A stretch of DNA of 48,159 nt from Candidatus Latescibacterota bacterium. Its GTDB lineage: Bacteria; JAAXHH01; JACQVL01. The translations under genes and the position numbers were made by a program. The DNA is taken from assembly GCA_016209865.1 (NCBI GenBank), contig JACQVL010000080.1:1-48159 (forward strand). Reading direction: 5' to 3'. The notes beneath the pieces were generated by a model. It was not told where the DNA came from. It saw only the letters and a list, made by a program, of their open reading frames with translations, and did not search any database. Positions 6,603-48,157 of this stretch are shown here, one piece after another; the stretch's first letter is position 1, and the number at the start of each line of letters is the position of its first letter.

Positions 6603-6635
6603 AGCGTTCCTCCGCGTTGTCTATCGTCCTGTGAG

Positions 6636-6716
6636 AAGGACGAAGGACAAAGGACGAAGGACGAAAAAGAGAGGGAGGCTTTCACTTTCGTCCTTTGTCC
6701 TTCGTCCTTCGTCCTT
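6636..6716. repeat. inverted pair of heptamer arrays, unit AAGGACG
   Basis: The left arm (6636-6667) holds four 7-bp units of AAGGACG type, the second being AAGGACA. The right arm (6686-6716) holds the reverse-complement units, with the variant again second when read left to right. About 18 bp separate the arms. It fills the space between mgtE and cstA. Closely similar arrays lie at 29126-29344 and 29908-29934. Confidence 0.9.
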
Positions 6717-10752: not shown

Positions 10753-10832
10753 AAAAGCGCACTTTTTAAGAGCAGGACAGACCGACATCACTCTACGACA
10801 CGGACTCTGCTGACGGGCATCACCACCTTATG

Positions 10833-10936
10833 ATTTTGGATTGTGGATTTTAGATTTTGGATTAGTCAGCCGACACCGGAGCACAGCGAACCCCTGTGTT
10901 CATCAATCCAAAATCCACAATCTAAAATCCAAAATT
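10833..10936. repeat. inverted pair of heptamer arrays, unit ATTTTGG
   Basis: The left arm (10833-10863) reads four units: ATTTTGG, ATTGTGG, ATTTTAG, ATTTTGG. The right arm (10905-10936) holds the reverse complement of each unit in the same left-to-right order. The two inner units therefore mismatch when the arms fold. The right arm begins one base past the TPR gene's TGA. The 41 bp between the arms and the stretch 10764-10832 show nothing else I recognise. Confidence 0.9.
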
Positions 10937-10937
10937 G

Positions 10938-12896
10938 TCAGTTGTCTTTATCCGCCTTCGCGGCGGCTTCGTTCAACTGCTGCAGTCCTCGTTTGGCGTC
11001 CACGTTATTCGGGTCGAGCTTGAGCACCTCGCGGAACTCCTCGCGGGCTTTGTCCAGTTGGCCGGAGTTGGCGTAGCCCTGGGCGAGCAACAGATGGGTA
11101 AACATGTGTCCCGGCCTGGCTTTGATCGACCGCTGGAGCAGGACGACGCCCTCCGTATACCGTTTCTCGACGAGCAGGATGTTGCCGAGGCCGGTCAGGG
11201 CATCCGGGTGCTCCGCGTCGATTTTTAAGATCTCCTCATATTCTTTTTTAGCCTCAACCATTTTATTCATCTGGAGGTACGTACTGGCCAGGAAAGTTCT
11301 GGATTGGATGTTCTCCGGTTTGATCTGGATCGCCTTTTGAAAGGTGCTGATAGCAAGGGGAAAATCTTTCTTCAGCATGGCGCAGAGGCCGAGGTTGAGG
11401 TACGCCGGGATGGACAACGTATCGATCTCTACTTTCCGCTGCAGGAAGGCGATCGCCTCGTCGTACCGCCGTTCTTTGGCGTCGCGTTCGCGTTGTAAAT
11501 TGTACAGCTCAACCCCAAGCGTAAAGTACACCCCGCTGAGTTTCGGGTTTTTCACCACGACCGGGTCGAGCGACTGCCGCACCGCTGTGACGGCATCCGC
11601 GTACAGCCCGCGGCGGATGTAGCATCGGCCCAACAATTCATACTGGTTGGCGTCGTCTGGCTGGAGCGCGATGGCTTTCTGGAGGTAAGGGAGCGTCTCC
11701 TCGTACCGGCCCTGTTGGAAGAAGACGGCGGCAAGCTGGATGTACGGCCTCACCGAGGTCGAGTCGATGGAGAGGGCTTTCTGGAGGTTCTTGACGGCCA
11801 TGACCGTGTCCGCCACGCCCGCCTGCGACTGTGTCCAGCCCAATTTGTACAACAACTCCGCGTTGTTGGGATCGAGGTCAACGGCATGCTGATACGCCAC
11901 GGCCGCCTTCGGGTACTCCCCCTTGGCGAGCAGCCCATCCCCTAACCCCTCCTGACTCTCCAACGATTTCGGGTTGAGGGAGGCCGCTTTCTCGAAGTAC
12001 GGGACGGAGTCGGACAGGCGCCGTGTCTTATTCAGTGCCTGGGCCAGGTAGAGGTTGGATTCAAAGTGGTTGGGTTGCAGCTCAGTGCTTTTCATCAGGG
12101 GACCGACGGCGTTCGCGTACTGCTTCGCTATCCAGTAGATGTACCCGAGCTGATACCAGGCATCCGTGGAGTTAGGGTTGAGCGTCGTGGCTTTGCGGTA
12201 CGCCTCGACGGCCTCTTCAAACCGCCGACTCTCGAAGTGCAATAGCCCGATCTGGTAGTGGACCGTCGCCGCGTTGGGGGAATTCGGGTCTAATTCCAGG
12301 GCTTTATTGTATTCATTAATCGCCAGGTCCCAGACTTTACGCTTGGCGTAGGCATCGCCGAGGCCGGTATGAAAGAGAGCGGTCTTCGGGTCTTTTGTGG
12401 TCGCCTTGCTCAACAGGACGACCGCTTCAGTCAACGAATCCTGCGCCATCTTGACGAGACCCTGACCGTAGAGGAACCGGGGCTGTCCCTTCGAGGCCGC
12501 ACCCCCCTTTTCGAACGTATCCAGGGCCGCATCGTATTGTTTCTTGTCTAAGAAGAGGAGACCTGACTCGTAGAGGGCATCGGGATACTTCGATTTGATC
12601 TTGACGGCCTCCTGCAGCTCCGCCAACGCTTCGTTTTTCTGACCTTTTCCTTTGAGCGCGAGCCCTAAGTAATAGTGCGCTTCCTCGGATTTCGGGTTCT
12701 TCTCCAGGACGGCCCGGAGAGCCGGAATCGCTTTATCATACTCTTTGTTCGCAATCGCCGTCTTGGCAGCCGCCAGACCTTCTTGCGCGAAGCCGGGTCG
12801 AACCCATCCCGCCATCATCATCCCAAGCCCGAACACCGCCACGAGCGCTATCCGATCCAGGCCAGTCCGGTGCGTCGGCACGCACGGTTGTCTCAT
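10938..12896 (-). CDS. exported tetratricopeptide repeat protein
   Basis: This is a 652-residue protein with a signal peptide (about 1-38, ending PGFAQ) followed by some 15-17 tetratricopeptide repeats covering nearly the whole mature chain. Repeats show the usual A-x-x-x-Y/L ... P motifs (AEAHYYLGLALKGKGQ, DAWYQLGYIYWIAKQYANAV, ALTGLGNILLVEKRYTEGVV). ATG 12896 is preferred to the ATG two codons earlier because GGAGG then stands 7 bp away. It is probably a periplasmic scaffold. It lies 16 bp after a PstS-like gene and upstream of exbB-exbD-exbD-tonB; this PstS/TPR/Exb grouping recurs in Bacteroidetes-type genomes. Its binding partners are unknown. Confidence 0.9.
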   Translation of the reverse strand: MRQPCVPTHRTGLDRIALVAVFGLGMMMAGWVRPGFAQEGLAAAKTAIANKEYDKAIPALRAVLEKNPKSEEAHYYLGLALKGKGQKNEALAELQEAVKIKSKYPDALYESGLLFLDKKQYDAALDTFEKGGAASKGQPRFLYGQGLVKMAQDSLTEAVVLLSKATTKDPKTALFHTGLGDAYAKRKVWDLAINEYNKALELDPNSPNAATVHYQIGLLHFESRRFEEAVEAYRKATTLNPNSTDAWYQLGYIYWIAKQYANAVGPLMKSTELQPNHFESNLYLAQALNKTRRLSDSVPYFEKAASLNPKSLESQEGLGDGLLAKGEYPKAAVAYQHAVDLDPNNAELLYKLGWTQSQAGVADTVMAVKNLQKALSIDSTSVRPYIQLAAVFFQQGRYEETLPYLQKAIALQPDDANQYELLGRCYIRRGLYADAVTAVRQSLDPVVVKNPKLSGVYFTLGVELYNLQRERDAKERRYDEAIAFLQRKVEIDTLSIPAYLNLGLCAMLKKDFPLAISTFQKAIQIKPENIQSRTFLASTYLQMNKMVEAKKEYEEILKIDAEHPDALTGLGNILLVEKRYTEGVVLLQRSIKARPGHMFTHLLLAQGYANSGQLDKAREEFREVLKLDPNNVDAKRGLQQLNEAAAKADKDN

Positions 12897-16049: not shown

Positions 16050-19000
16050 ATCACCCCATCCTCCCCGATGATGTCATACCCGCCGTCATCCCGACGGATC
16101 GCCGTCGCATGCGGGATGACCTCAACCCGGTCGCCCGGGCCGCAGTCGTAAAGCCAGGCGATCGAGCCAGCCGGAAACGCGCGCGTCAGGTCGACCGGCT
16201 CGACGACGGAGACCCGCGCATCACGCCGGAAGCCCGGACGGTGCGAGGCCAGCACGATGTCGTCAACCGGGACCCAGACCGACCGGTCAGCGTTGACCAG
16301 CCACGTCCCGCGGTAATACCCCTGCGCCGCTAAGTAGAGATATGTTTTCGTCACCAGCGACCGGCCGTCCGACCCATGACCGGACACGATGAACCGCCCG
16401 ATGCGGCATGAATCCACCCCGAACCGGACCTGACACCGGTCGGAGTCGCCGTCGATGTCAGTGATCGTGTACGCCGCCCCGTGACGGGTATTTCCGATCA
16501 GGATCATCTCTCCGACGAGGGCGCGAGGCGTCGCGCCCCGACAACGCGCATCCCATTCCACCACGATCATCGAGGGCTCATCCTCGACTGCACTGACCGT
16601 CCCGGACAGCCCGCCCGGAAGACGGAGGGCCACGCCGGTTGTCTCGATCATGCCCGCTCCGATCAAGTCGAGCCGGGTCACCCGTCCGGCCCGGTCCCAC
16701 CGGATGAGGCCGAGGCGGCCGGAGAATTTTAGATTTTGGATTTTAGATTTTGGATTGTTCAACCCGCAATCCGCAATACGCAATCCGCAATCTCCGCCCT
16801 GGATGACCACATCCACCCCGTCTGGGTGCTCGATTCGGAGTCCGACGGCGGCTGGGACCGGACGCCCGTCCTCGTCGCACACGGAAAGGGCGGACACGGC
16901 GTTCGTCTTCGGCGAGTCCCGGAACGGCTCGATCACGGACACGAACCGGCTGGCGAGCGTGTCCCCCCGGTTTCGCAGGATGACGTAGGTCAGCTGGTCG
17001 GGGAGGCCCGGCTTGCGCGGAGGCGGGCCGGCCGCGAAGATCGCCTCGTCCGACGGAACGGGGAACCATATCCTGAGTCCGGCGCGGTCTTCGGACTCCT
17101 GCCACGTCACCGACCAGGGACGATCCGGTCTGCCGCGCCGGACGTTGTCTAAGTACGAGTATCCGCTTCCCCGGTAGGTGTAGTACGACCGTCCCTTCCG
17201 GGCCGGGTCGCGGAGGTCGGGCTCGTCGTAGATGTCCATGAACGGGACGGCTTCCCCGGCCAGGGTCCCTGGCCGTGCCGTGACGGTGAGGCCGTCGACC
17301 TGGAGGAAGGGGGCGTCAAACCCATGCAGGCTGTAATCGTGCTGAACCCCGCCCGTCACGCGGAACAGGTCGATCACGTACCGGGCATCCGGGCCGAGGT
17401 CGACGAGCGCGGTCGTCCGCCGGTACTGGGCGGTGTGGCGGTAGGTCTCCGGCGCGTCGATATCAACAAACTGGAGACCCGGCAGGCTGACAAACCCCAG
17501 CAACCGGCCGGCCGCCTGCGTATCCTGCCGGCGCTCGTCGACCACGACGGTCGCGTGAGCGGCGGTGTTCTTCGTCCAGACCGGTGGGGTCTCCCCTTCT
17601 GCCGCGTGTTCCGGGTAACCTAAATCGGGGATCAGCTTCTTCCCGTATGCGAACACCTCCAGGTTGAGCCGGTCGAAATGGGCGTGTTCCGTCGCCGCCC
17701 GGCCGTAGTAGACCGCCACGGCGGTCTGGGCTTCCCCTTCCCCCGACCGGAGGAGGGCGAGGCCGTACCCGCCGAGCAGCCGGCTGCCGGTCGTCATCGT
17801 CCGGTACTGCCGGGCACCATCATCCACGCCGGACAGCGCCAACGGCGGGGCGAACAGATCATCGACGCTCTCAAACAGGACTCCTTCATCCCGGCGAGCG
17901 GCGCGGGTCTGGAGGAGGTACGCGAAGAGCGGGTCGCGGTACTGCTCGTAGGCGGTGCGCAGCGCGTCGTTCGATAACTCGACGAGGCCGCCGACCACAC
18001 TTCCCGCATCCCCGATCGCCGGGGTGAACCGGTCGAGACAGACGATCTCGGACGGCCAGGAGAACATCCGGCGGATTTTCGGCCGGTCCCAGACGGAGAC
18101 GCCGAGGCGTTCCAGCAGCCGGGCGACCCGACTGAGATGCTCGACCCAACTTGCGCAGTAGCCGGGTGAGGACTCCCATCCGATGCCCTCCCGGAAGAGC
18201 AGGTTGTCGAGCGCGAAGTCGAGGCCCTCTGCATGCGCCGCCTTGTCCCGGAAGAGGTAATCGTCGAAGCTCGTCAGCATCTCTTTGAGCAGGGTGGCCT
18301 CCCCGGTATTCCGGAGCACCCAGTCGACCGCTTCCTCCTGCCGCTGCCGGTCGCCCAGGACGAGAACCGCTGTCAGCAGCGCCTCCTGGTGTCCCCCGTA
18401 GTTGCTCCGAACCTGGCCCCGGTACACGGCCTCGATCCCCTCGATCAGGATATTCCGCTCGATGTGGGCACGCATCCCAGCCGCTCGCGGAGCGAAGTCG
18501 GGGATGTCGATGAGCGCGTCATGGACGCCGTCGTACGCCTCCGCGAACCCCTTGAGGACGCCGGCTTCGGAGATTTGGTTGAAGACCTTCCCCGTGTACT
18601 GAGGGGAGAATTCCACGGCATACATCGACTGGGTGTGGTAGTCCATCGCCGGGTAGACGTCCGCGATCCGGTCGAGCATGATGAGCGCCGTCCGGGCGTA
18701 CCCGGCCTCGCCCGTCAGGACGTACGCCCGCGCGAGCGTGGTCACCCCCTGGATGATCGCGTGCCAGAGGCTCTCACAGCAGTACGCGATGAACCAGTGG
18801 CGGAACCCCGCAGCCTCAGCGCGCCACCCCCAGCCGTCGTCCGGGTACGGCCCGGTCAGGAGGCTCCGGTCGTCCAGCCCCGTCCGGTAGAACGCGCCGA
18901 AGTCGTTGCTGGGGTACGATTCTCCCCCGATCCCGCAGGTCACCGTCCAGGGCGCCGTGAACGGGTCGTACTGCCATCCGCCCTGAGTGTACCCGCTCAA

Positions 19001-26143: not shown

Positions 26144-26224
26144 TCACCACAAAGGCACAAAGGACACAAAGAGCGTTCAAATTCTGGATCGTTTTTCTTC
26201 GTGCTCTTTGTGTCTTTGTGGTGA
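26144..26224. repeat. inverted repeat of CACAAAG-type units
   Basis: The left arm (26144-26174) and right arm (26203-26224) carry CACAAAG units separated by one or two bases, in opposite orientation, around about 28 bp. The arms pair as CACCACAAAG...GAGC. The element fills the aminotransferase-mutase gap and adds a spurious open extension to the mutase gene. Confidence 0.85.
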
Positions 26225-28352: not shown

Positions 28353-29127
28353 AAACGCGAAACGGTTTATGACGCCTTGGATCGACCGGGAATTACAGGC
28401 TGCAACAGGACAGGAATTGCTCAGCCATCTCGAACGGTGTCCGGACTGCAAACGGGAGTTCGAGCTGGAACGACGACTCAAAGCGATGCTCGCGGAACGA
28501 GTCCCCAGGCTGAGTGCCCCGCCGCATCTGTACCAGCTGATTGTCACCGCGCTGGATGCGCCGCCCGTCAGGCGTTCCTGGGGGGAACGTCTCTCCGAAG
28601 TTCTGCTGGTACGCCCACGAATCGGGTTCGCGGCCATCGCGGCCGCGGCCCTCGTCGTGATGACGACCGTGACCTCCCTCCTCTACTCGACGTTTCAACC
28701 GCCCCCGCCCCTGATTGCCGATCTCGTCCAGCACCACACGATGTGCGCCGTGGAGATAGCCTCCGATCAGCCGGAAAAAATCCGCGCCTGGTTCGCCGGA
28801 CAGGTGAATTTTGCGGTCGACGTCCCGCGCCTCGACCGATTCCACTCGCGACTGTTAGGGGCGCATCTGTGCCAGGCGGCCGACCGGAAGATCGCCTACC
28901 TGGTCTATGACCTCAACGGTACCCGGATGTCCGTCTGTCTGCTCACCGGCTCCCCGGTTGACCTCGACCGGTTGAAACGGGTGTCCCGGAAGAACGCCCA
29001 GTTCTATACCGCCGCCTACCGGAATCAGAACCTCGTCCTGTGGTCTGAAGGCAACCGGATTTGTTCGTTCATCGGCCCGGTCAAGCAGGACGACCTGCTC
29101 ACGATGGCCAGCGGGAGAGAATGGTAA
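28342..29127 (+). CDS. zinc-finger anti-sigma factor, membrane-anchored
   Basis: A 261-residue protein whose ATG lies inside the end of the sigma gene, preceded by GAAGGGCGACAGC. The N-terminal zinc-finger domain has CKNAKRFMTPWIDREL and HLERCPDCKREFELE (H-x3-C-x2-C, about 29-36). A transmembrane helix lies at about 95-117 (IGFAAIAAAALVVMTTVTSLL), followed by an extracytoplasmic domain of about 140 residues (for example LGAHLCQAADRKIAYLVYDLNGTRMSVCLLTG) like those of other ZAS anti-sigmas. The domain contains several cysteine and histidine residues (HHTMCAVEIA, LGAHLCQAA), which might sense metal or redox change. The TAA stop merges with the first unit of an AAGGACG repeat. Confidence 0.88.
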   Translation: MDCKNAKRFMTPWIDRELQAATGQELLSHLERCPDCKREFELERRLKAMLAERVPRLSAPPHLYQLIVTALDAPPVRRSWGERLSEVLLVRPRIGFAAIAAAALVVMTTVTSLLYSTFQPPPPLIADLVQHHTMCAVEIASDQPEKIRAWFAGQVNFAVDVPRLDRFHSRLLGAHLCQAADRKIAYLVYDLNGTRMSVCLLTGSPVDLDRLKRVSRKNAQFYTAAYRNQNLVLWSEGNRICSFIGPVKQDDLLTMASGREW

Positions 29128-29344
29128 GGACGAAAGAGCAAGGACGAAGGACGAAAGAGCAAGGACTAAAAAAAGATTTCTTAGGACGCCTGACAAAAGC
29201 TCTTCCTCGCCCATTGCCATGCTGTGCGAAGCATCTCGCCGTTCTTAAGACCCTTCGCTTCGCTCAGCGTGACATTGCGTGAGCGATTCTTACTCATTCT
29301 TGTTTTTGTCTATTTCGTCCTTTGTCCTTCGTCCTTGCCTTTTA
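29126..29344. repeat. heptamer arrays (AAGGACG type) flanking a convergent gap
   Basis: The left array (29126-29168) mixes AAGGACG and AAAGAGC units, and its first AA is part of the anti-sigma TAA. The right array (29316-29344) carries CGTCCTT, TGTCCTT and CGTCCTT and reaches the HD gene's TAA. The pair spans the gap between two convergent genes, so it may fold as a two-way terminator. The 147 bp between them hold the element at 29211-29280. Confidence 0.85.
29211..29280. repeat. probable dispersed intergenic element between the heptamer arms
   Basis: This stretch contains GCTGTGCGAAGCATCTCGCC followed by CCTTCGCTTCGCTCAGCGTG. It resembles intergenic elements of the CTTCGCTCAG...GTGACA type that I recall from other bacterial genomes. 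No second copy is in this window, so repeat status is an inference. Confidence 0.35.
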
Positions 29345-29893
29345 GAGTCCTAACTCGCTCGCCGCCCCCTGCATCGCCTGGATGACGGTGGCGATGTGGT
29401 CGTCCAGACCGATGCCCAGGCTCTCCGCCCCGCGCCGGATATCCTCACGAGAGATCGCTTTCGCGAACGCGGGCGTTTTCATCTTCTTCTTCACCGACTC
29501 GACCGTGACATCCCGAACGCTCCTCGACGGGCGGACGAGCGCGACGGCGGTGATGAACCCCACCAACTCATCCACGGCAAAGAGCCCCTTGTCCATCAGG
29601 GTTTTCCGTTCCAACCCTAAATATTCAGCATGGGATTTGATGGCGTAGATGATGTCCTCCGGATACCCTTTTTCCGTCAGAATGGCCGCGCCCCGCATCG
29701 GGTGATCCTGGGGCAAGGGCGTCGCCTCGTAATCGAAATCATGCAGGAGACCGACGACGCCCCAGCGGTCCGGGTCTTCCTCGAATCGAACCGCGTACGC
29801 CCGCATCGCCGCCTCCACCCCCAGGGCATGCTTTCTTAGGCTGTCGGTCTTCGTGTGCTCGTACAGGAGCGCTAAAGCATCGTCTCGGTTCAT
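29342..29893 (-). CDS. HD-domain phosphohydrolase-like protein
   Basis: A 183-residue cytoplasmic protein from ATG 29893 (GGAAGG upstream). The HD-domain metal motif is visible: His in LRKHALGVEAAMRAYA, then the doublet VGLLHDFDYEATPLPQDHP (HD at about 51-52, further His in DHP) and LFAVDELVGFITAVALV. Proteins of this kind hydrolyse phosphodiester or nucleotide bonds, and many predicted members are uncharacterised. Conserved C-terminal segments (KKKMKTPAFAKAISREDI) match a common HDIG-type uncharacterised family. It is the last gene after the HEAT-like protein, with a short array between them. The TAA stop lies next to another array unit. Confidence 0.85.
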   Translation of the reverse strand: MNRDDALALLYEHTKTDSLRKHALGVEAAMRAYAVRFEEDPDRWGVVGLLHDFDYEATPLPQDHPMRGAAILTEKGYPEDIIYAIKSHAEYLGLERKTLMDKGLFAVDELVGFITAVALVRPSRSVRDVTVESVKKKMKTPAFAKAISREDIRRGAESLGIGLDDHIATVIQAMQGAASELGL

Positions 29894-29907
29894 CCTCAAT
29901 CCTTCCC

Positions 29908-29934
29908 TTTTTCGTCCTTTGTCCTTCGTCCTTA
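29908..29934. repeat. single heptamer array (AAGGACG type)
   Basis: Units CGTCCTT, TGTCCTT, CGTCCTT read left to right in the 38-bp gap upstream of the HD gene. It is the same sequence as the right arms at 6686 and 29316. The TTA at 29932-29934, which is the HEAT-like gene's TAA, is formed by the end of the array. Confidence 0.85.
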
Positions 29935-30942
29935 ATCCTTCCAATAAATGTCCCGGCTCATCGCCAGTTGAATCACCCTGGGACTCCCGCGCCGCCAGTC
30001 GTTGAGGAGGTCGCGGATGTCCTCGCGCAACTCGGGGAATCGGTCCCAGTAGTGCAGGACGAGTTTCGCCGCCTCGACCGTCCAGTCATCATCGTGGGAC
30101 TGATAGACCGTCCGGTCGAGGGCGATCAACACTGGGACAGCGACCTCAAGGTCGACATCCCGCAGGAACCGGATGGCGAAGCGCTGGTCCGGGTCGCGTG
30201 CCAGGTCGATGAGGTGCAGAATAGGCTCCTGGTCGATCCGGCTGATCAGGCGCTGGAGCAACGCCTCGCGCACGTCAAAGAATTTCACGTCCGCTTTCGA
30301 GAGGGCGATCAGGCTGGCCCGTGGGGCGGTCTCACACGCGCGATGGACGACGCCCAGGTACACGTCACCACCCGGCCTGGCCAGCAACGGGAGCGCGACC
30401 TCAAAGAACAAGGGATGCCGACAGACCCCCCAGGAGATCGCGGCACAGACTCCATCATCCGGCTCCGCTTCCAGATGCCGGATGACGATCTCGACCGCCT
30501 CCCGGTGGGGAGCCCGGAGCAACTCGTACAGCGCCTCGCGCCGGAGGAACGCGTCCGGGTCGGAGAGGAGCCCGCCCCAGATGCCCAGATCGAACAGATA
30601 CCGCCACCCCAGCGCGCCGATGATCGCCTCCCGGAGCCGCCGGTCCTCGTCCGGGTTGGCGGCGAGCGCGGCCAGGCGTTTGGGGACGGCCTGGACACGG
30701 TCATCATGCAGCAGGTTGAGACTCAGCCACGGCCGATGGAACCCTAAGACCTGGATGGCAGCGACACGGACGGGGAGGGGCTCCTCCCGGCGCCCGGCCG
30801 ATTCGATCAGCCACTCGACCTCGACAGACTGCAGGGCGACCTGGCGAAGCGCCTGAATCGCCTCCTGCTGCTCCACCCAGTTGTCTTCGTCTTCGTGGAT
30901 TTTCGAGAGTAAGACCGCGAGATGTGCCCGCCCTGACTGCAT
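29932..30942 (-). CDS. HEAT-repeat-like alpha-helical protein
   Basis: A 336-residue soluble protein made of repeated helical pairs with HEAT/armadillo-like features: PVRVAAIQVLGFHRPWLSLNLL, LREAIIGALGWRYLFDLGIWG and FLRREALYELLRAPHREAVEI. I do not recognise a named family. It could be a scaffold for the neighbouring kinase/diguanylate cyclase, which ends 6 bp upstream, but this is inferred only from the operon. The stop TAA coincides with the start of a heptamer array. There is no signal peptide or membrane helix. Confidence 0.75.
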   Translation of the reverse strand: MQSGRAHLAVLLSKIHEDEDNWVEQQEAIQALRQVALQSVEVEWLIESAGRREEPLPVRVAAIQVLGFHRPWLSLNLLHDDRVQAVPKRLAALAANPDEDRRLREAIIGALGWRYLFDLGIWGGLLSDPDAFLRREALYELLRAPHREAVEIVIRHLEAEPDDGVCAAISWGVCRHPLFFEVALPLLARPGGDVYLGVVHRACETAPRASLIALSKADVKFFDVREALLQRLISRIDQEPILHLIDLARDPDQRFAIRFLRDVDLEVAVPVLIALDRTVYQSHDDDWTVEAAKLVLHYWDRFPELREDIRDLLNDWRRGSPRVIQLAMSRDIYWKD

Positions 30943-30948
30943 CGTCTG

Positions 30949-31818
30949 TTACGCTCCATGCACCCGGTTCTTCCCCGTCCGCTTGGCCAGGTACATCTGG
31001 TCCTCGGCCGCCTTGAGCAAGGCGTCGTCGTTCGAATAGTTGTCCTGGAAGGCGGCGGCCACCCCGAAGCTCATCGTGACCGGCTCTCGCCGGCCGGAGA
31101 ATTCTAGATGTTCGATCTCCATACGGAGCGATTCAGCCAGGACGAGCGCGTCGGAGACGGGCATCTGCGGGAGAACGATCGTAAACTCTTCCCCCCCGTA
31201 CCGGGCCACTAAGTCGGCCGGCCGCACGGACGCCGTGAACGTCCGGGCGATCTCGATCAGGACTTTATCCCCGTACGGGTGACCGTGCCTGTCGTTCAGG
31301 TCTTTGAAATCATCGATGTCCGCCATGATGAGAGCAAGCGAGTGGCCTTGCTGGGTGGCCGCCGTGTACGAGCGCTTCAGGGCGGTCTGGAAGTAGGCAT
31401 GGTTGTACAATTTCGTCAGCCCGTCCCGGTAGAGGAGGCTCCGGACGAGCAAGGTGTTCTTGACGCGGAGCCGGATGATCTGGAGTTTATCCGGGTTCAG
31501 GTCGCCCTTGAAGATGTAATCGTCCGCCCCCTCTTCCAGGCCTTCCCGCTCCTGATCCGGGTCGATCGTCAGGTAGATGTAAGGGGGCATGTTCTCCCCT
31601 TCCCGTTCCTTCATTCGCGCGATCACCATCCGGCCGTCGAGTTCTGGCATGATGATATCCATCAAGACCAGGTCCGGCCGGTTCTGCCGGAGCGCACGAA
31701 TGCCCTCCTCGCCAGACTCGACCGTCACGACGTTGTAGCCATCCCGGGACAGAATCTTCTTCAATACTATCCGCGCACTCTGTTAGTCATCGACGACCAG
31801 GATATTCGCCCGTTCCAT
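30949..31818 (-). CDS. response regulator-GGDEF diguanylate cyclase with in-frame TAA at codon 12 (broken)
   Basis: Read from ATG 31818, the product is MERANILVVDD, then TAA (31783-31785), then QSARIVLKKILSRDGYNVV. The stop sits just after the acidic pair of a receiver domain, where most homologues have Glu, Asp or Asn. The rest is intact: phospho-acceptor Asp in LVLMDIIMP, then the GGDEF domain with GLTKLYNHAYFQTAL, MADIDDFKDLNDRHGH, catalytic YGGEEF, and an inhibitory RxxD (RPAD) five residues before it. It would make c-di-GMP. Internal starts exist after the stop (TTG at 31764), but they lose the first strand and the acidic pocket. The kinase lies upstream. Point mutation or sequencing error (GAA to TAA) is the simplest explanation. 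Confidence 0.88.
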
Positions 31819-31868
31819 GATGGCGCTCCATCGTTCGGATGGCGGATTTGACTGTCAGGTCTTCAACC

Positions 31869-31890
31869 CGCAATCGGCAATCCGCAATCT
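31869..31890. repeat. short heptamer array, unit GCAATCC
   Basis: Three 7-bp units (GCAATCG, GCAATCC, GCAATCT) lie 3 bp beyond the kinase stop. The block TTCAACCCGCAATC at its left end is identical to that within the heparinase-like gene at about 16760. Confidence 0.8.
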
Positions 31891-31893
31891 CGA

Positions 31894-33345
31894 TCAGGCT
31901 GGGACGGCAAACGGCACCGAGGCCACAGGCAGGATGACCCGGAAGATCGACCCCGTCCCGACCTGACTGTCGATCTCGATCCGCCCGCCATGCGCTTTGA
32001 TGATCAGGTCGGAGATCATCAGGCCGAGCCCCATGCCGTCGCTCTCAGGCCCTCGGTATTCCGTGAAGACCATCGCCTTCTCTTCCTCAGTCATCCCCCG
32101 CCCGGTGTCAGACACCTGAAGACGGACGCACGGCTCTCCATCCCCATTCCCGGCATGCGGAGCCAGACCCACGTCCACACTCAACCGGATCTCTCCGTGG
32201 GGTGGGGTAAATTTAAGGGCATTCTTGACGAGGTTGTTCAGGACCTGAACGAGTCGAGTCGAATCTCCCACCAGCTCCGGGATCCCGGCATAGTCCTGCT
32301 CTGACGGGGTGATCAAGCGGATGTTCTTGCGGACGCAGATTGGGCTGCACTGCGCCGCACAGAGGGCGATCAGGTAATCCACGGAGACATCCGACTCGAT
32401 CGAAAACTGCATCTGACCGCGCTGCAGTTTGACGTAATCGAAGATATCCCCGATGACCCGGTTGAGCAGCGTCTGGCCGCGCTGGTTGAGGTAGGCGTCC
32501 TCTTTCAGCGACACCAACTCCGGCTCGAGGTCGGGCAATTTGCCCGATACGAGGATCCGGTCGATCATGTCGAGCGTGTCCTGCAGGAAGCTCTGGAGGC
32601 CGAGGGCCGGGTTCTGCAGTTCGTGCGCGATGATGCTGAAGAGCTGCTTCCGGCTTTTCTCGTACAGCTCCCGGGCGCGTTGCAGCTTGCGCTGCTCCGT
32701 GACATCTCGGACGGAGATGTTCTTCCCGACCACTTTTCCCCTGGAGATGAAGTCGGAGAGGGAACATTCAAGACAGAGGTCGTGAAGGACGACCTCGCGG
32801 GTTGAAGGGCCTTCCTCGAACGGGTCGAACGTCAGCCGCCGCCGGAGGGTCGTCCTGGTGTCCCCGCGTCGCAGGCCGAGGACCTGCTCGACGAACGCGC
32901 TGCTCGCCAGCACCGCCCCGTTGAGGTCGATGATCAGAATCTCCCCGACGTTATTCAGGATGGTGTGCATCACATCCTGACTGAACTCCAGCTCGTCCCG
33001 AAGACGCAGAATCTCGGCCTGCTGGCTGAGCGTCTCCCGGAGCTGGTTCCGTTCGGACCGGTACGCCGTGAGCAGGGCGGCGACGTGCGCCTGGACTTCG
33101 CTGTCCTGCGGGGCGAAGGAGTAAGCCCGCTCGCCGCCGCGTTCGACCGAGTGGAGGAGCCGGGGTTGCAACCGGTCGAGCGCCTGTTCCGCCGGACCGG
33201 GGTCCATCTCCATCCGCAGCGCCAACAGGCTGAGCGGATGGTAGGCGATACGATTGGCAGAGACGACATCGATCGCCCGGATGACCGGCTCAGTGTCGAT
33301 CCTCAAGAACGATAACGCTTGCTGGAGGCTGATCGAGTGCTCCAT
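31894..33345 (-). CDS. PAS-containing sensor histidine kinase
   Basis: A 483-residue kinase from ATG 33345 (AAAGGAGTG upstream). There is no membrane helix, so it is cytoplasmic. The N-terminal region (about 1-110) looks helical, with a coiled coil near 85-115. A PAS-like domain follows at about 118-220 (MHTILNNVGEILIIDLNGAVL). The HisKA motif has phospho-His in FSIIAHELQNPALGLQSF. The HATPase has the N-box QVLNNLVKNALKFTPPHG, DTGRGM and MGLGLMISDLI. Helix and H-box details suit a bacterial hybrid-free kinase. Its partner is probably the receiver-GGDEF gene directly downstream. The promoter TTGAAA-17-TATAAT at 33422-33450 lies between heptamer arms. Confidence 0.93.
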   Translation of the reverse strand: MEHSISLQQALSFLRIDTEPVIRAIDVVSANRIAYHPLSLLALRMEMDPGPAEQALDRLQPRLLHSVERGGERAYSFAPQDSEVQAHVAALLTAYRSERNQLRETLSQQAEILRLRDELEFSQDVMHTILNNVGEILIIDLNGAVLASSAFVEQVLGLRRGDTRTTLRRRLTFDPFEEGPSTREVVLHDLCLECSLSDFISRGKVVGKNISVRDVTEQRKLQRARELYEKSRKQLFSIIAHELQNPALGLQSFLQDTLDMIDRILVSGKLPDLEPELVSLKEDAYLNQRGQTLLNRVIGDIFDYVKLQRGQMQFSIESDVSVDYLIALCAAQCSPICVRKNIRLITPSEQDYAGIPELVGDSTRLVQVLNNLVKNALKFTPPHGEIRLSVDVGLAPHAGNGDGEPCVRLQVSDTGRGMTEEEKAMVFTEYRGPESDGMGLGLMISDLIIKAHGGRIEIDSQVGTGSIFRVILPVASVPFAVPA

Positions 33346-33358
33346 CACACTCCTTTCT

Positions 33359-33517
33359 GAACGATGAATGCAGAATGATGAACGATGAATGAAAAACTGA
33401 GGGCGGATGCATTCCAGTTGCATTATAGTCACCCGTTCGCTTGATTTCAATAGTTTTTCTGAAAAAATTTTACGTTGTTTTTTTCATTCATCATCCATCG
33501 TTCATCATTCATCGTTT
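33359..33517. repeat. inverted pair of heptamer arrays, unit GAAYGAT
   Basis: Left arm (33359-33397) has five units such as GAACGAT, GAATGCA, GAATGAT. The right arm (33481-33517) has the reverse-complement type (ATCATTC, ATCGTTC). The kinase promoter lies between the arms. The right arm ends in the PIG-L gene's TAA, and the left arm lies in the kinase leader. Confidence 0.85.
33422..33450 (-). promoter_or_regulatory. sigma-70 type promoter of the histidine kinase operon
   Basis: On the minus strand TTGAAA (33445-33450), a 17-bp spacer and TATAAT (33422-33427) give a strong match. It lies in AT-rich DNA between the heptamer arms. The transcript would contain the left arm in its leader. Confidence 0.7.
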
Positions 33518-35459
33518 ACTTCAGGATCGCCCGTCCATAAAGATACGGGAGTGCCTGCGCGGACGGCCAGAACGACCAGGCGAGACGCGCCTTCTCGATG
33601 TTCGCGCCGACCCCGGCGCGGGTATCGTCGCCATCATAAATGATCGCATTCAGGCCGATCATCTGTCCCGACGCCGGCGCGACGCCGCCCGGCATGTCCC
33701 GCCAGGGAATGGCCGTCTCGATCAGGTACCCGGTCTTCGTGAAGCTCGACGCCACCCGCATCCCCGGCGCAGTCTTCTCGATCACCCCCTGGTTCGCGTC
33801 CGCGTCCCGCTCCGCGCGCGCCTGCCGTCCGGCGGTCGTGCCCGGAAAGATGCCGGTCTTGAAGACGGTGAGGGTGTGTTCGCTCCTGCCGGACGGATCG
33901 ACGCAGATCTCGACCGAGTCGGTCCGCCAGTGGCCCTTGATGTCGTCCGGCGCGATGTTGCAGACGACCACATCGTCCGTCACCTCGACGGCGACGTAGA
34001 GGTACTCCGCGTCGTACCCCGCCCGGAACGTCCCGCTGCAGTCCGCATCCCCGCCGGGCAGCCTGCCCGACCAGAGTGCGGTGGACGGGATGAGGTGAAC
34101 GGGAACGCCCGCCCAGTCGGCGACGTTCCCGTCTATAACGAGCGGGCGGGCAGACCGGGTGAGGATCATGACCGGGAGCGCGTCGATCTTCCCGGCGTCC
34201 GCGATCGTCTTGCCGTCGACCGTCGTCGTGGCAGTGATGTCATACGCGCCTGGGGTAAGACCAGAGGGAACGGTGACGACGAACGGAAGGCGAGTGGTCT
34301 TCCCGGCCGGGAGGTCATACGGCTTCGCGCGGGCATCCGCCGTGAAGCCCGTCGGGAGGGTGAGGGTGATAGTCCCGTCTACTCGGCGGTCGCGGTGATT
34401 CTCCACGATGACCGCGACCGTGTCCGCCATCCCGATCCCGACCGACACCTCGGCGGGCAGGAGACCGACGAGCCAGTCGATCCCTTGGGCGGCTGCCCAC
34501 CGGCGGAACTCCGCCACATCCCGCCGGGGGGCGATCCGCACGTCCAGCGGAGCGAGCGGCTGTGCGGAGGGACTGGCGAGCGCCCGATTCACCGGAGCCG
34601 TGATGCCGTCTAACAGGCTCGTTGCTGACGGCGAGGTCGGGACGAGGGATGTGACGAGGAGGAACGATTCAGGCTCGGATCGCTGCGGCGGGAGCAGCGC
34701 GAACCGGTCGAACCCCTGCGACCGGTAATTCCGGAGGGCTAACGCTTTGATCTCCCCGTAACTCATGAACCGGCCCGGTGAGATGTCGGTGACGGGCACG
34801 CGCAGGGAGGGGTTGCGGTCGGTGTTGTAGTACAACTTCAACGGCTGCCAGGGACGGAGGAACTCGTCCGTGAGTTGCTCAGGGAAGATGGTCGAATCGG
34901 CGGCGGCGGTGAACGCCTCGGTCGCCAGCCGGGCGGCCGCCTGGTGCTGCCCGTGGGTGCCCGGTCCCGGCCACATCGTCACGATCACGTCCGGCCGGAG
35001 GAGGCGGACGAGCCGGACGAGCCGCCGGAGCGCGTCGTCGTGATGCCACACGTCGAACGCGGCCTGGCAGCTCAGGGTGTAGAAGAAATCAGTCTTGTCG
35101 AGAAAATAGACGAGATCGACGCCGTACGTCGCGGTGGCGCGCCGGAGTTCCGCCTCCCGGAGCAGGCCGAGCGCCGGTCCCAGCTCCTTCCCGATCCCGT
35201 TCCCACCGCCTTCCCCTCGTGTCGCTAAGACGACCGCCGCCCGCGCGCCATGATCGAGCACCTCCCGGCCGAACGTGGCGGTGACGCCGCTCTCGTCGTC
35301 CGGGTGCGCGCCGATGAAGAGCAGGTTGACTTTGAGGAGATGATCGGATTGGATGTGCGCGACGGGCTGGGCAGAGACAGGGGAGAGGGAGAGCGTGAGG
35401 GAAACAGAAAGGATGGCGTGGAGGAAAAAAGATGGTGTGATCGTCCGTATGGATAGCAT
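33516..35459 (-). CDS. exported PIG-L/LmbE-family deacetylase with C-terminal sugar-binding-like domains
   Basis: A 647-residue exported protein. Signal peptide about 1-30 (HAILSVSLTLSLSPVSAQP). PIG-L/LmbE zinc deacetylase domain at about 43-280: LLFIGAHPDDESGVTATFG (AHPDD motif) and later PGTHGQHQAAARLA (H-x-x-H). A middle region of about 320-430 resembles NPCBM-associated NEW3 beta-sandwiches. The C-terminal part (about 440-647, VIDGNVADWAGVPVHLIPS, ...) looks like a CBM9-type carbohydrate-binding domain. It probably de-N-acetylates glycans outside the cytoplasm. No Shine-Dalgarno is obvious at ATG 35459, and a REP-like element lies just upstream. The TAA stop joins a heptamer array. Confidence 0.87.
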   Translation of the reverse strand: MLSIRTITPSFFLHAILSVSLTLSLSPVSAQPVAHIQSDHLLKVNLLFIGAHPDDESGVTATFGREVLDHGARAAVVLATRGEGGGNGIGKELGPALGLLREAELRRATATYGVDLVYFLDKTDFFYTLSCQAAFDVWHHDDALRRLVRLVRLLRPDVIVTMWPGPGTHGQHQAAARLATEAFTAAADSTIFPEQLTDEFLRPWQPLKLYYNTDRNPSLRVPVTDISPGRFMSYGEIKALALRNYRSQGFDRFALLPPQRSEPESFLLVTSLVPTSPSATSLLDGITAPVNRALASPSAQPLAPLDVRIAPRRDVAEFRRWAAAQGIDWLVGLLPAEVSVGIGMADTVAVIVENHRDRRVDGTITLTLPTGFTADARAKPYDLPAGKTTRLPFVVTVPSGLTPGAYDITATTTVDGKTIADAGKIDALPVMILTRSARPLVIDGNVADWAGVPVHLIPSTALWSGRLPGGDADCSGTFRAGYDAEYLYVAVEVTDDVVVCNIAPDDIKGHWRTDSVEICVDPSGRSEHTLTVFKTGIFPGTTAGRQARAERDADANQGVIEKTAPGMRVASSFTKTGYLIETAIPWRDMPGGVAPASGQMIGLNAIIYDGDDTRAGVGANIEKARLAWSFWPSAQALPYLYGRAILK

Positions 35460-35812: not shown

Positions 35813-35865
35813 ATTGCGGATTTTAGATTTTGAATTTTGGATTGAACCAATCCACAATCCGCAAT
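35813..35865. repeat. inverted heptamer arrays, unit ATTNNGG
   Basis: The left arm (35813-35843) has ATTGCGG, ATTTTAG, ATTTTGA, ATTTTGG units. The right arm (35849-35865) has CCACAAT and CCGCAAT. Outer units are truly complementary (ATTGCGG with CCGCAAT). The array begins one base beyond the gltX TAA and ends 5 bp from tRNA-Gln. Confidence 0.88.
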
Positions 35866-35866
35866 G

Positions 35867-37327
35867 TTATTTCCCCACTCTTACCGTCTCCCCTAACGCC
35901 GCGCACGCCCGATCCAGCCGGGCGAGCGTCGTCTCTTTCCCCAACAGCACGATCAACTCGAACAGGGACGGGCCGATCATCTCGCCCGTCAGCGCGACCC
36001 GCGTCGGATGGATCAACTCCGCCGCCTTCAGGCCGTGCGCGTCCGCCACGTCGCGGGTGATCGCTTCAAGATGCTCTGCTGAGAACTCGGAGGCCGACGC
36101 GAATCGATCACGGAGCCACTGCATCCGCTCGGCGACCCGCTCCCCATCCTTCCAGTGCTTCTCCACCGCCTTCGGGTTGTAGTCCACCTGATCGACAAAA
36201 AAGAACCGTCCCTGGGTAGCGAAATCCACTAACGTCCGGCATCGCTCCTTGAGCAGTTCGATGACCTGAAGGATGCGGGCCCGCTGCGCCGCGAGACCCG
36301 CCTCGTCGATCAGTCCGTCTCGGATGAAAAACGGCGTGACGAGCGGGAAAAGTTCCCCGGCCGACAGGGTGTTGATGTGCTGCCCGTTCAGCCAGTGGAG
36401 CTTCTGGAGGTCGAACACGGTGTCCCGCTTGTTGACCTGCTCCAGCGAGAACAGCGCCATCAACTCCGCCCGTGTGAAGAATTCCCGATCATCCCCGGTC
36501 GACCAGCCCAACAGGGCAAGGAAGTTGACGATCCCATCCGGTAAATACCCGGCGTCCCGGTACTCCGACACCGACACCGCGCCGTGGCGTTTGGAGAGTT
36601 TTTTCTTGTCCGGCCCCAAGATGTTCGGCAGATGGGCGAATTCCGGCAACTCGTACCCGAACGCCTGGAAGAGCTGGATGTGCTTCGGGGTGTTCGATAC
36701 GTGGTCCATCCCCCGGATGACATGCGAAATCTCCATCGCAATATCATCAACGACCACCGCCAGATGGTACAGCGGCCAGCCGTCGGACCGGACGAGGACG
36801 AAATCCCCGATCGTGCTGTTGCCCACCTCGATGTCGCCGAGGATGCTGTCCGTAAACCGGGTCTTCCCCGGTGGGACGGACAGACGGATGACGCGCGGCG
36901 TCCCCTGCTCCTCGTACCGCTGGCGTTCTGTCTCGCTCAGATGGGCGCACCGGCGGTCATACTGCCACGTCCGGCCCTGCTGGATGGCCTCCTGCTTGCG
37001 GGCCTCCAGTTCCTCCGGTGTGCAGTAACAATAATACGCCTTGCCCGCCCTCACCAACTCCTCCGCCCGCTGCTGGTAGAAAGCGACCCGGCGCGACTGG
37101 GAGACGATGTCCTCATCCCAGTGCAGTCCCAGCCAGGTGAGGACGTCGAGGGCGGCGTCCACCCACTCCTGCCGCGACCGCTCCACGTCCGTGTCCTCGA
37201 TGCGGAGGAGGAACGCGCCGCCTGTGCGTCTGGCAAACAGCCAGTTGAACAGGGCGGTGTGCGCACTGCCCACGTGGAGCAGGCCGGTCGGACTGGGTGC
37301 GAATCGAACGCGAACGGGACGGGGCAT
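35867..37327 (-). CDS. gltX: glutamyl-tRNA synthetase, possibly non-discriminating
   Basis: A class I synthetase of 486 residues. HIGH-type motif in FAPSPTGLLHVGSAH (about 9-23), KMSKS-type KKLSKRHG (about 242-249), and a zinc-binding C-x-C-x24-C-x-H (Cys100, Cys102, Cys127, His129), as in E. coli-type GluRS. GluRS charges tRNA-Glu. Bacteria without GlnRS also use it to make Glu-tRNA-Gln, which GatCAB converts. It stands directly upstream of tRNA-Gln and tRNA-Glu, which fits that role, but no gat genes are seen here and discrimination cannot be read from sequence by eye. A 137-residue membrane protein gene precedes it by 11 bp. Confidence 0.97.
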   Translation of the reverse strand: MPRPVRVRFAPSPTGLLHVGSAHTALFNWLFARRTGGAFLLRIEDTDVERSRQEWVDAALDVLTWLGLHWDEDIVSQSRRVAFYQQRAEELVRAGKAYYCYCTPEELEARKQEAIQQGRTWQYDRRCAHLSETERQRYEEQGTPRVIRLSVPPGKTRFTDSILGDIEVGNSTIGDFVLVRSDGWPLYHLAVVVDDIAMEISHVIRGMDHVSNTPKHIQLFQAFGYELPEFAHLPNILGPDKKKLSKRHGAVSVSEYRDAGYLPDGIVNFLALLGWSTGDDREFFTRAELMALFSLEQVNKRDTVFDLQKLHWLNGQHINTLSAGELFPLVTPFFIRDGLIDEAGLAAQRARILQVIELLKERCRTLVDFATQGRFFFVDQVDYNPKAVEKHWKDGERVAERMQWLRDRFASASEFSAEHLEAITRDVADAHGLKAAELIHPTRVALTGEMIGPSLFELIVLLGKETTLARLDRACAALGETVRVGK

Positions 37328-37781: not shown

Positions 37782-37857
37782 AGGTTCCAGGAATCAGGTT
37801 CCACGTTCCTCGTGATCCATCCTTCAACCTGGAACATGAAACTTGAAACCTGGAACC
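37782..37857. repeat. inverted heptamer arrays, unit GGTTCCA
   Basis: Left arm 37782-37809 has four 7-bp units (AGGTTCC, AGGAATC, AGGTTCC, ACGTTCC). The right arm (37825-37857) has CAACCTG, GAACATG, AAACTTG, AAACCTG and GAACC. The outer ends are complementary. It lies between tRNA-Ser(GCT) and the small membrane protein gene. Confidence 0.85.
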
Positions 37858-38102: not shown

Positions 38103-38135
38103 CAGGAAATTATCCCCCAACCTCCCAACCCCGCC

Positions 38136-38242
38136 GGGCAGATGGGCAGTGGGCAATGGGCAATGGAAGCCATTCCCCCGTCCACTGCCTACTGCCCGGT
38201 GGGGCCTGGGGGCTGTGCGGGGACTGCCTGCTGCCCGATGGG
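38136..38242. repeat. heptamer arrays, unit TGGGCAA/ACTGCCC type
   Basis: The left arm (about 38136-38166) has GGGCAGA, TGGGCAG, TGGGCAA, TGGGCAA units. Two right-hand arms (about 38170-38199 and 38219-38242) carry CACTGCC, TACTGCC and GACTGCC units. The element lies between the tRNA-Ser promoter and the end of dprA. Confidence 0.8.
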
Positions 38243-38258
38243 GAGAGGAGAGGGGGGG

Positions 38259-42603: not shown

Positions 42604-42751
42604 CAGTGACGAGTGACGAGTGGCAAGTGACGAGCAAAAGTCCATCATTTACGTTACGTTGAATCTCATTTCTACGCAAGAGAGAATCGAAAGGCTCCCG
42701 CTCATAAAGAACGGGTCTTACTCGTCACTCGTCACTGGTCACTCGTCACTG
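42604..42751. repeat. inverted heptamer arrays, unit GTGACGA
   Basis: The left arm (42604-42634) has GTGACGA, GTGACGA, GTGGCAA, GTGACGA. The right arm (42716-42751) has TCGTCAC, TCGTCAC, TGGTCAC, TCGTCAC, so the odd unit is third in both. The right arm supplies the last codon and TGA of the NYN gene. Its 36 bp are the exact reverse complement of 48122-48157. The middle 81 bp hold nothing recognisable. Confidence 0.92.
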
Positions 42752-48114: not shown

Positions 48115-48121
48115 CGTATGA

Positions 48122-48157
48122 CAGTGACGAGTGACCAGTGACGAGTGACGAGTAAGA
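48122..48157. repeat. heptamer array, unit GTGACGA, at the right edge
   Basis: The array directly precedes the comEA ATG. It is an exact 36-bp reverse complement of 42716-42751. The window ends two bases later, so an opposing arm outside it cannot be excluded. Confidence 0.9.

Follow-up and report, generated by a model that had tools for sequence, protein, structure and literature searches.

We analysed a window of 48,159 nucleotides (contig JACQVL010000080.1, positions 1 to 48,159) from the Candidatus Latescibacterota bacterium assembly GCA_016209865.1, in which tandem arrays of 7-bp units overlap or closely adjoin the stop codons of eight genes. The arrays were read directly and located with Tandem Repeats Finder, and the gene names were supported by Pfam. 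An AAGGACG array on the plus strand (29126..29166) begins with the AA of the stop codon TAA (29125-29127) of an anti-sigma (zf-HC2) gene, and an AAGGACG-type array on the minus strand (29911..29941) overlaps the TAA (29932-29934) of a HEAT-repeat gene, in the context AAGGAT[TAA]GGACGAAGG. Likewise, an ATGAACG-type array (33484..33517, minus strand) has the AA in common with the TAA (33516-33518) of a PIG-L gene, tAA+ACGATGAATGATG, and a GTGACGA array (42720..42750, minus strand) takes in the last codon and the TGA (42746-42748) of an NYN gene, CAG[TGA]CGAGTGACC. An inverted AAGGACG arm (29314..29336, minus strand) lies 5 bp from the stop of an HD-domain gene (29342-29344), an ATTGCGG array (31864..31890, minus strand) 4 bp from that of a histidine kinase gene (31894-31896), and an ATTTTGG array (10905..10936, minus strand) 2 bp from that of a TPR gene (10938-10940). 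The nearest unit of a set of ATT-type inverted arms (35818..35865), ATTGCGGATTGTGG, is 1 bp from the gltX stop (35867-35869). The preliminary description had named these eight sites as lying within about 6 bp of a stop, and direct reading found all eight in place, overlapping the stop or at most 5 bp from it. Small corrections concern the TPR gene, for which it had given 1 bp and the distance is 2 bp, and the kinase gene, where its 3-5 bp becomes 4 bp.

That list was selective, since the window also holds arrays away from stops and one pair inside an open reading frame (ORF). The PIG-L array has an inverted partner (33358..33392, plus strand) close to a kinase start, with a promoter-like site, TTGAAA-17-TATAAT, between the two arms. 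The GTGACGA array has one (42605..42634, plus strand) upstream of a malate/lactate dehydrogenase gene, and the ATTTTGG array one at 10832..10863 (plus strand). An AAGGACG inverted pair (6635..6716) lies 75 bp from the MgtE stop, an ATT-type inverted pair (16726..16792) runs in frame within a 1064-aa heparinase-like ORF, and a GTGACGA array (48119..48153, plus strand) sits about 4-8 bp from a gene start instead of a stop. Another array (26148-26220) is 12 bp from a stop, and arrays at 37826 and 38143 lie by tRNA genes. The window contains other repeats as well: at 29226-29292 a dispersed repeat of 67 bp, GCGAAGCATCTC...CTTCGCTTCGCTCAGCGTGACA..., is enclosed by the inverted pair and recurs in the genome, and a dispersed repeat of ~145 bp with GGGCAGT arms (38111-38257) has genome copies that are 86-91% identical. 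A response-regulator/GGDEF gene has an in-frame TAA close to its start (31783-31785), where a relative (locus L202) has GAA; this is either a nonsense mutation or a mistake of assembly. The Pfam receiver match of this gene begins at profile position 14.

To place these arrays in a wider setting, we sampled 862 kb (23%) of the source genome, a 3.75-Mb draft in 356 contigs, as a first sample of 656 kb and an independent replicate of 206 kb. The contigs were picked by number, irrespective of array content, and genes were called with a Markov-model caller built for the analysis, whose stops are reliable and whose starts are less certain. A scan of the 656 kb gave 86 intergenic repeats at lag 7 and 30 more that were mostly within genes, while counts at lags 4-6 and 8-13 were near zero apart from an echo at lag 14; extrapolation from the sample gives roughly a thousand arrays in the genome. 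Array lengths peaked at 24 and 30-32 bp, or ~7n+3, corresponding to 3 or 4 heptamers plus 3 bp. There are about ten or more sequence families, the main ones being, in canonical form, ACGAGTG, ACCACCG, AAAATCC, AAGGACG, ACCCCTG, AAGAGTG and AACCCCG. Discrete length peaks without a tail are unlike the product of slippage. In four-unit arrays the variant units were mostly interior and the final unit was never variant, suggesting that arrays behave as whole copies. In two inverted pairs of the window (10832-10935 and 6635-6716), both arms have the same variant heptamers, and these follow one another identically from left to right, unmirrored. A stricter regular-expression test gave 3 in-order pairs, 1 mirrored pair and 7 ties, too few cases to establish a rule.

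The majority of 38 neighbouring array pairs were inverted. In a frequent intergenic layout, an array with its G-rich strand in the sense direction stands at the upstream stop, and the second arm, if there is one, is its inverse and sits directly before the next ribosome-binding site. Such same-family inverted arms, together with nested pairs of different families, would fit arms of miniature transposable elements that have a conserved body and insert as a single unit. Inspection showed, however, mostly unique DNA between the arms, with promoter-like sites in it, and many arrays are single arms without a partner; we regard this explanation as quite improbable. A dRS3-like hairpin repeat, GTCATTCCCGCGnAAGCGGGAATCCA, is frequent between heptamer arms in many intergenic regions (e.g. 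L025, L045 and L060).

Array edges were strongly biased towards stops. In the 656 kb, 67 of 112 stop-facing outer edges overlapped a stop (40) or lay within 6 bp of one (27), compared to 10 of 118 start-facing edges by the same criterion; the replicate gave 21/38 and 3/34, respectively. In tandem regions of the first sample the median edge distance was 2 bp to the stop vs 37 bp to the start, and the nearer gene boundary was a stop in 66 cases and a start in 23. The observed counts were compared with three placement nulls: uniform, with a 12-bp margin at starts, and with this margin plus a 20-bp overhang at stops. For the 67 edges observed, the expectations were 25.7+-3.3, 36.6+-3.1 and 52.6+-3.8, the last reaching a maximum of 66 in 2000 runs. 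For the 21 edges of the replicate they were 8.9, 12.5 and 17.8+-2.3, and the most permissive null was not exceeded by the replicate alone. The stop bias is thus real and replicated, and the arrays lie closer to stops than random intergenic placement predicts in both samples, as the preliminary description had anticipated. Since the most permissive null raises the expectation to 53 and 18 edges (~80% and 85% of the observed counts), part of the effect is packing; short gaps, exclusion from the start side and tolerance of a small overhang account for most of the bias but leave a remainder.

Placement alone does not account for two features: an excess at 0-6 bp, which is small, and a strong rule of orientation. 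At 0-6 bp, 27 edges were seen in the 656 kb vs 10 expected under the most permissive null, and the following 6 bp held only about 6. This sharp excess counts against simple tolerance and is what would be expected if insertion were actively targeted to gene ends, that is, to stop codons or adjoining structures. Targeting would also fit the near-exact preservation of protein ends described below. Against it, divergent regions, which have no stop, hold arrays just as often (33% of divergent intergenic regions, compared to 30% of convergent and 23% of tandem ones); arrays also occur inside ORFs, and there is no sign of a target motif or duplication. Active targeting is unlikely in our judgement. 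The first of the two options in the preliminary description, insertion targeted to stops or tolerated at them, finds support in its weaker sense, with a strong stop bias and with stops supplied by the arrays where their sequence permits.

The orientation rule was examined in both samples. Within 30 bp of a stop, the nearest array had its G-rich strand reading outward from the gene in 77 of 86 cases; within 30 bp of a start, this was so in 37 of 51. Among arrays overlapping a stop or within 6 bp of it, 85 were G-rich and 3 C-rich in this direction (both samples combined), compared to 20 and 10 at 7-30 bp. The G-rich strand of GTGACGA, AAGAGTG and ATTTTAG units contains TGA or TAG, and stop overlap was largely confined to the families bearing these motifs: of 112 stop-facing arrays whose G strand carries a stop motif, 46 overlapped a stop, vs 3 of 38 arrays lacking the motif. 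Family A has a conserved A-rich leader, AAAA[T/G]C, which is found in stop and other contexts alike and can complete a TAA; TAA made up 13 of the 27 stops in the 0-6 bp class vs 123 of 426 elsewhere. Two observations speak against explaining the orientation by tolerance: families without a stop motif are also G-rich-outward (10:1 at 0-6 bp), and the rule holds near starts too. Also counting against inserted and tolerated copies, no transposase, target duplication or base-resolution empty site was found; the relatives compared share ~65-80% DNA identity.

The comparison with orthologous loci, which had been proposed in the preliminary description, showed that genes with an array at the stop end almost exactly as their orthologues do. 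For 15 genes compared with same-order orthologues, the median end difference was 1 residue and 14 were within 4, resembling the end differences of 40 control genes. The PIG-L end was identical to those of its orthologues, the HD protein was 3-4 residues shorter than most relatives and the gltX product 4 residues shorter. C-terminal truncation by insertion was ruled out by these near-equal ends. In a related genus (g3), the corresponding loci lack heptamers and have unrelated tandem repeats of 11, 14, 16, 19 or 22 bp that begin at or beside stop codons (L189, L192, L194, L204 and other loci). Unrelated repeats at the same position suggest that the site after a stop is generally permissive. In another genus of the order, inverted-pair repeats of roughly eight bases follow stops, near that of the kinase at L202 and after that of a dehydrogenase at L083 (G013).

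The position beside stops, and the fact that inverted arms could pair, would also be consistent with the role at mRNA 3' ends suggested in the preliminary description, with arrays acting as terminators or stabilisers. In Xanthomonas, transcripts start or stop somewhat more often at quadruplex-capable repeats (Rehm et al., PMC4692102). This role found no support here and we consider it distinctly unlikely: the divergent regions are as well populated as the others, many arrays are single arms, and arms also occur on 5' sides and inside ORFs. In addition, arrays are found in 33 tandem regions of <=75 bp, in which the median length outside the array is 25 bp, and a terminator in such a tight gap would cut a probable operon.

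Dispersed heptamer arrays are known from cyanobacteria as short tandemly repeated repetitive (STRR) sequences, in the literature on which we found no account of placement at stops. The closest parallel is the work of Rehm et al. 2015 (PMC4692102) on GGGAATC heptamers in Xanthomonas, which are intergenic, mostly of four units and found in inverted pairs, and on GGGGA(C/T)T in Nostoc, which has a similar distribution and few inverted pairs. There the G-rich strand is in the sense direction within 50 bp of stops or overlapping them and antisense before starts; no function was found, and quadruplexes were discussed. The arrays described here have in common with these the 7-bp unit, the intergenic over-representation, the size of about four units (length peaks of 24 and 31 bp), the G-rich strand rule at stops and starts, and the inverted pairs. 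Heptamers adjoining stops were thus already known from Xanthomonas and Nostoc in 2015, and their placement is the same here. In contrast to the Rehm-type arrays, which have at least three consecutive G per unit and are under-represented between divergent genes, 183 of 244 arrays here lack GGG and divergent regions are not depleted. Many families coexist, and one recurs in distant bacteria.

These differences bear on the idea, put forward for Xanthomonas and Nostoc, that G-quadruplex formation sets the four-unit size and the strand rule. The unit number and strand placement match those reported (PMC4692102), and some families here do have GGG runs. However, the arrays without GGG (for example AGTGACG, ATTTTGG, AAGGACG and AAGAGTG) show the same lengths, and their stop bias is at least as strong (72/117 vs 16/33). 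As three quarters of the arrays behave alike without GGG, quadruplexes cannot be the general reason, and we hold this explanation to be highly improbable. What is new is that many families are unable to form G-quadruplexes and that one is scattered over distant bacteria; since the non-quadruplex families behave the same, the stop association is separable from the G-quadruplex idea.

Two other systems are related more loosely. The TAACTGA heptamers of Beggiatoaceae are intergenic, give stops in all frames and overlap the upstream stop in 13 sets (MacGregor 2015, PMC4679880); they differ in being a single sequence, lying mainly before start codons and hardly ever being inverted. In Geobacter metallireducens, paired heptamer/octamer sites of three to five tandem 7-8 bp units occur on opposite strands at variable spacing, and a further set, present at 49 loci, consists of four GGGACCG heptamers (Aklujkar et al. 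2009, PMC2700814). These sites differ in being proposed to bind a regulator and in having insertion sequences at fixed distances; placement at stops is not described in the accessible sections of that report.

The families here differ widely in their spread. The AGTGAC pattern had 345 matches in the source genome and 0 in 15 genomes of the same order. The ATTTTNG pattern had 152 matches in the source genome and was present in 25 of 384 genomes overall, although low complexity may account for some of the matches that have T at the free position; a reversed control was almost absent. The occurrence of ATTTTNG was patchy: two genomes from outside the order had 84 and 78 matches and one relative had 14, and the genus g3 genomes had none. 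In a genome outside the order, the arms at locus L245 again bracket an intergenic region, and 7 of 25 edges were at stops, a count based on few edges and a weak gene model. The AGTGACGAGTGACNAGTGACGAGT (GTGACGA) pattern was also found in nineteen IMG/VR viral contigs (L255-L273).

Taken together, the size classes and families, the stop and orientation bias, the near-unchanged protein ends and the tie between stop overlap and stop-bearing families point to dispersed repeats that are probably tolerated at the edges of ORFs where they supply the stop, which is the best reading of the data. The arrays would be copies of short dispersed repeats of 3-4 heptamers plus 3 bp, often in inverted pairs, that arrive by insertion and build up in non-coding DNA. 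Short intergenic gaps would bring the copies close to stops, and the ribosome-binding site would close the start side to them. A copy falling on the last codons of an ORF would be kept when its G-rich strand gave a new stop within a few codons, through GTGACGA or ATTTTAG, or through an A-rich leader that completes a TAA, so that selection may have sorted the orientation of the arrays. More tentatively, an unrecognised mechanism could carry heptamer cassettes of fixed length (24/31 bp) from one bacterial genome to another and around each of them, placing them at the edges of ORFs in one set orientation so that they come to serve as stops. These results suggest that repeats, as they spread, can come to provide ordinary genes with their stop codons and leave the proteins little changed, and a genome of roughly a thousand arrays is a place to study the mechanism of their spread.
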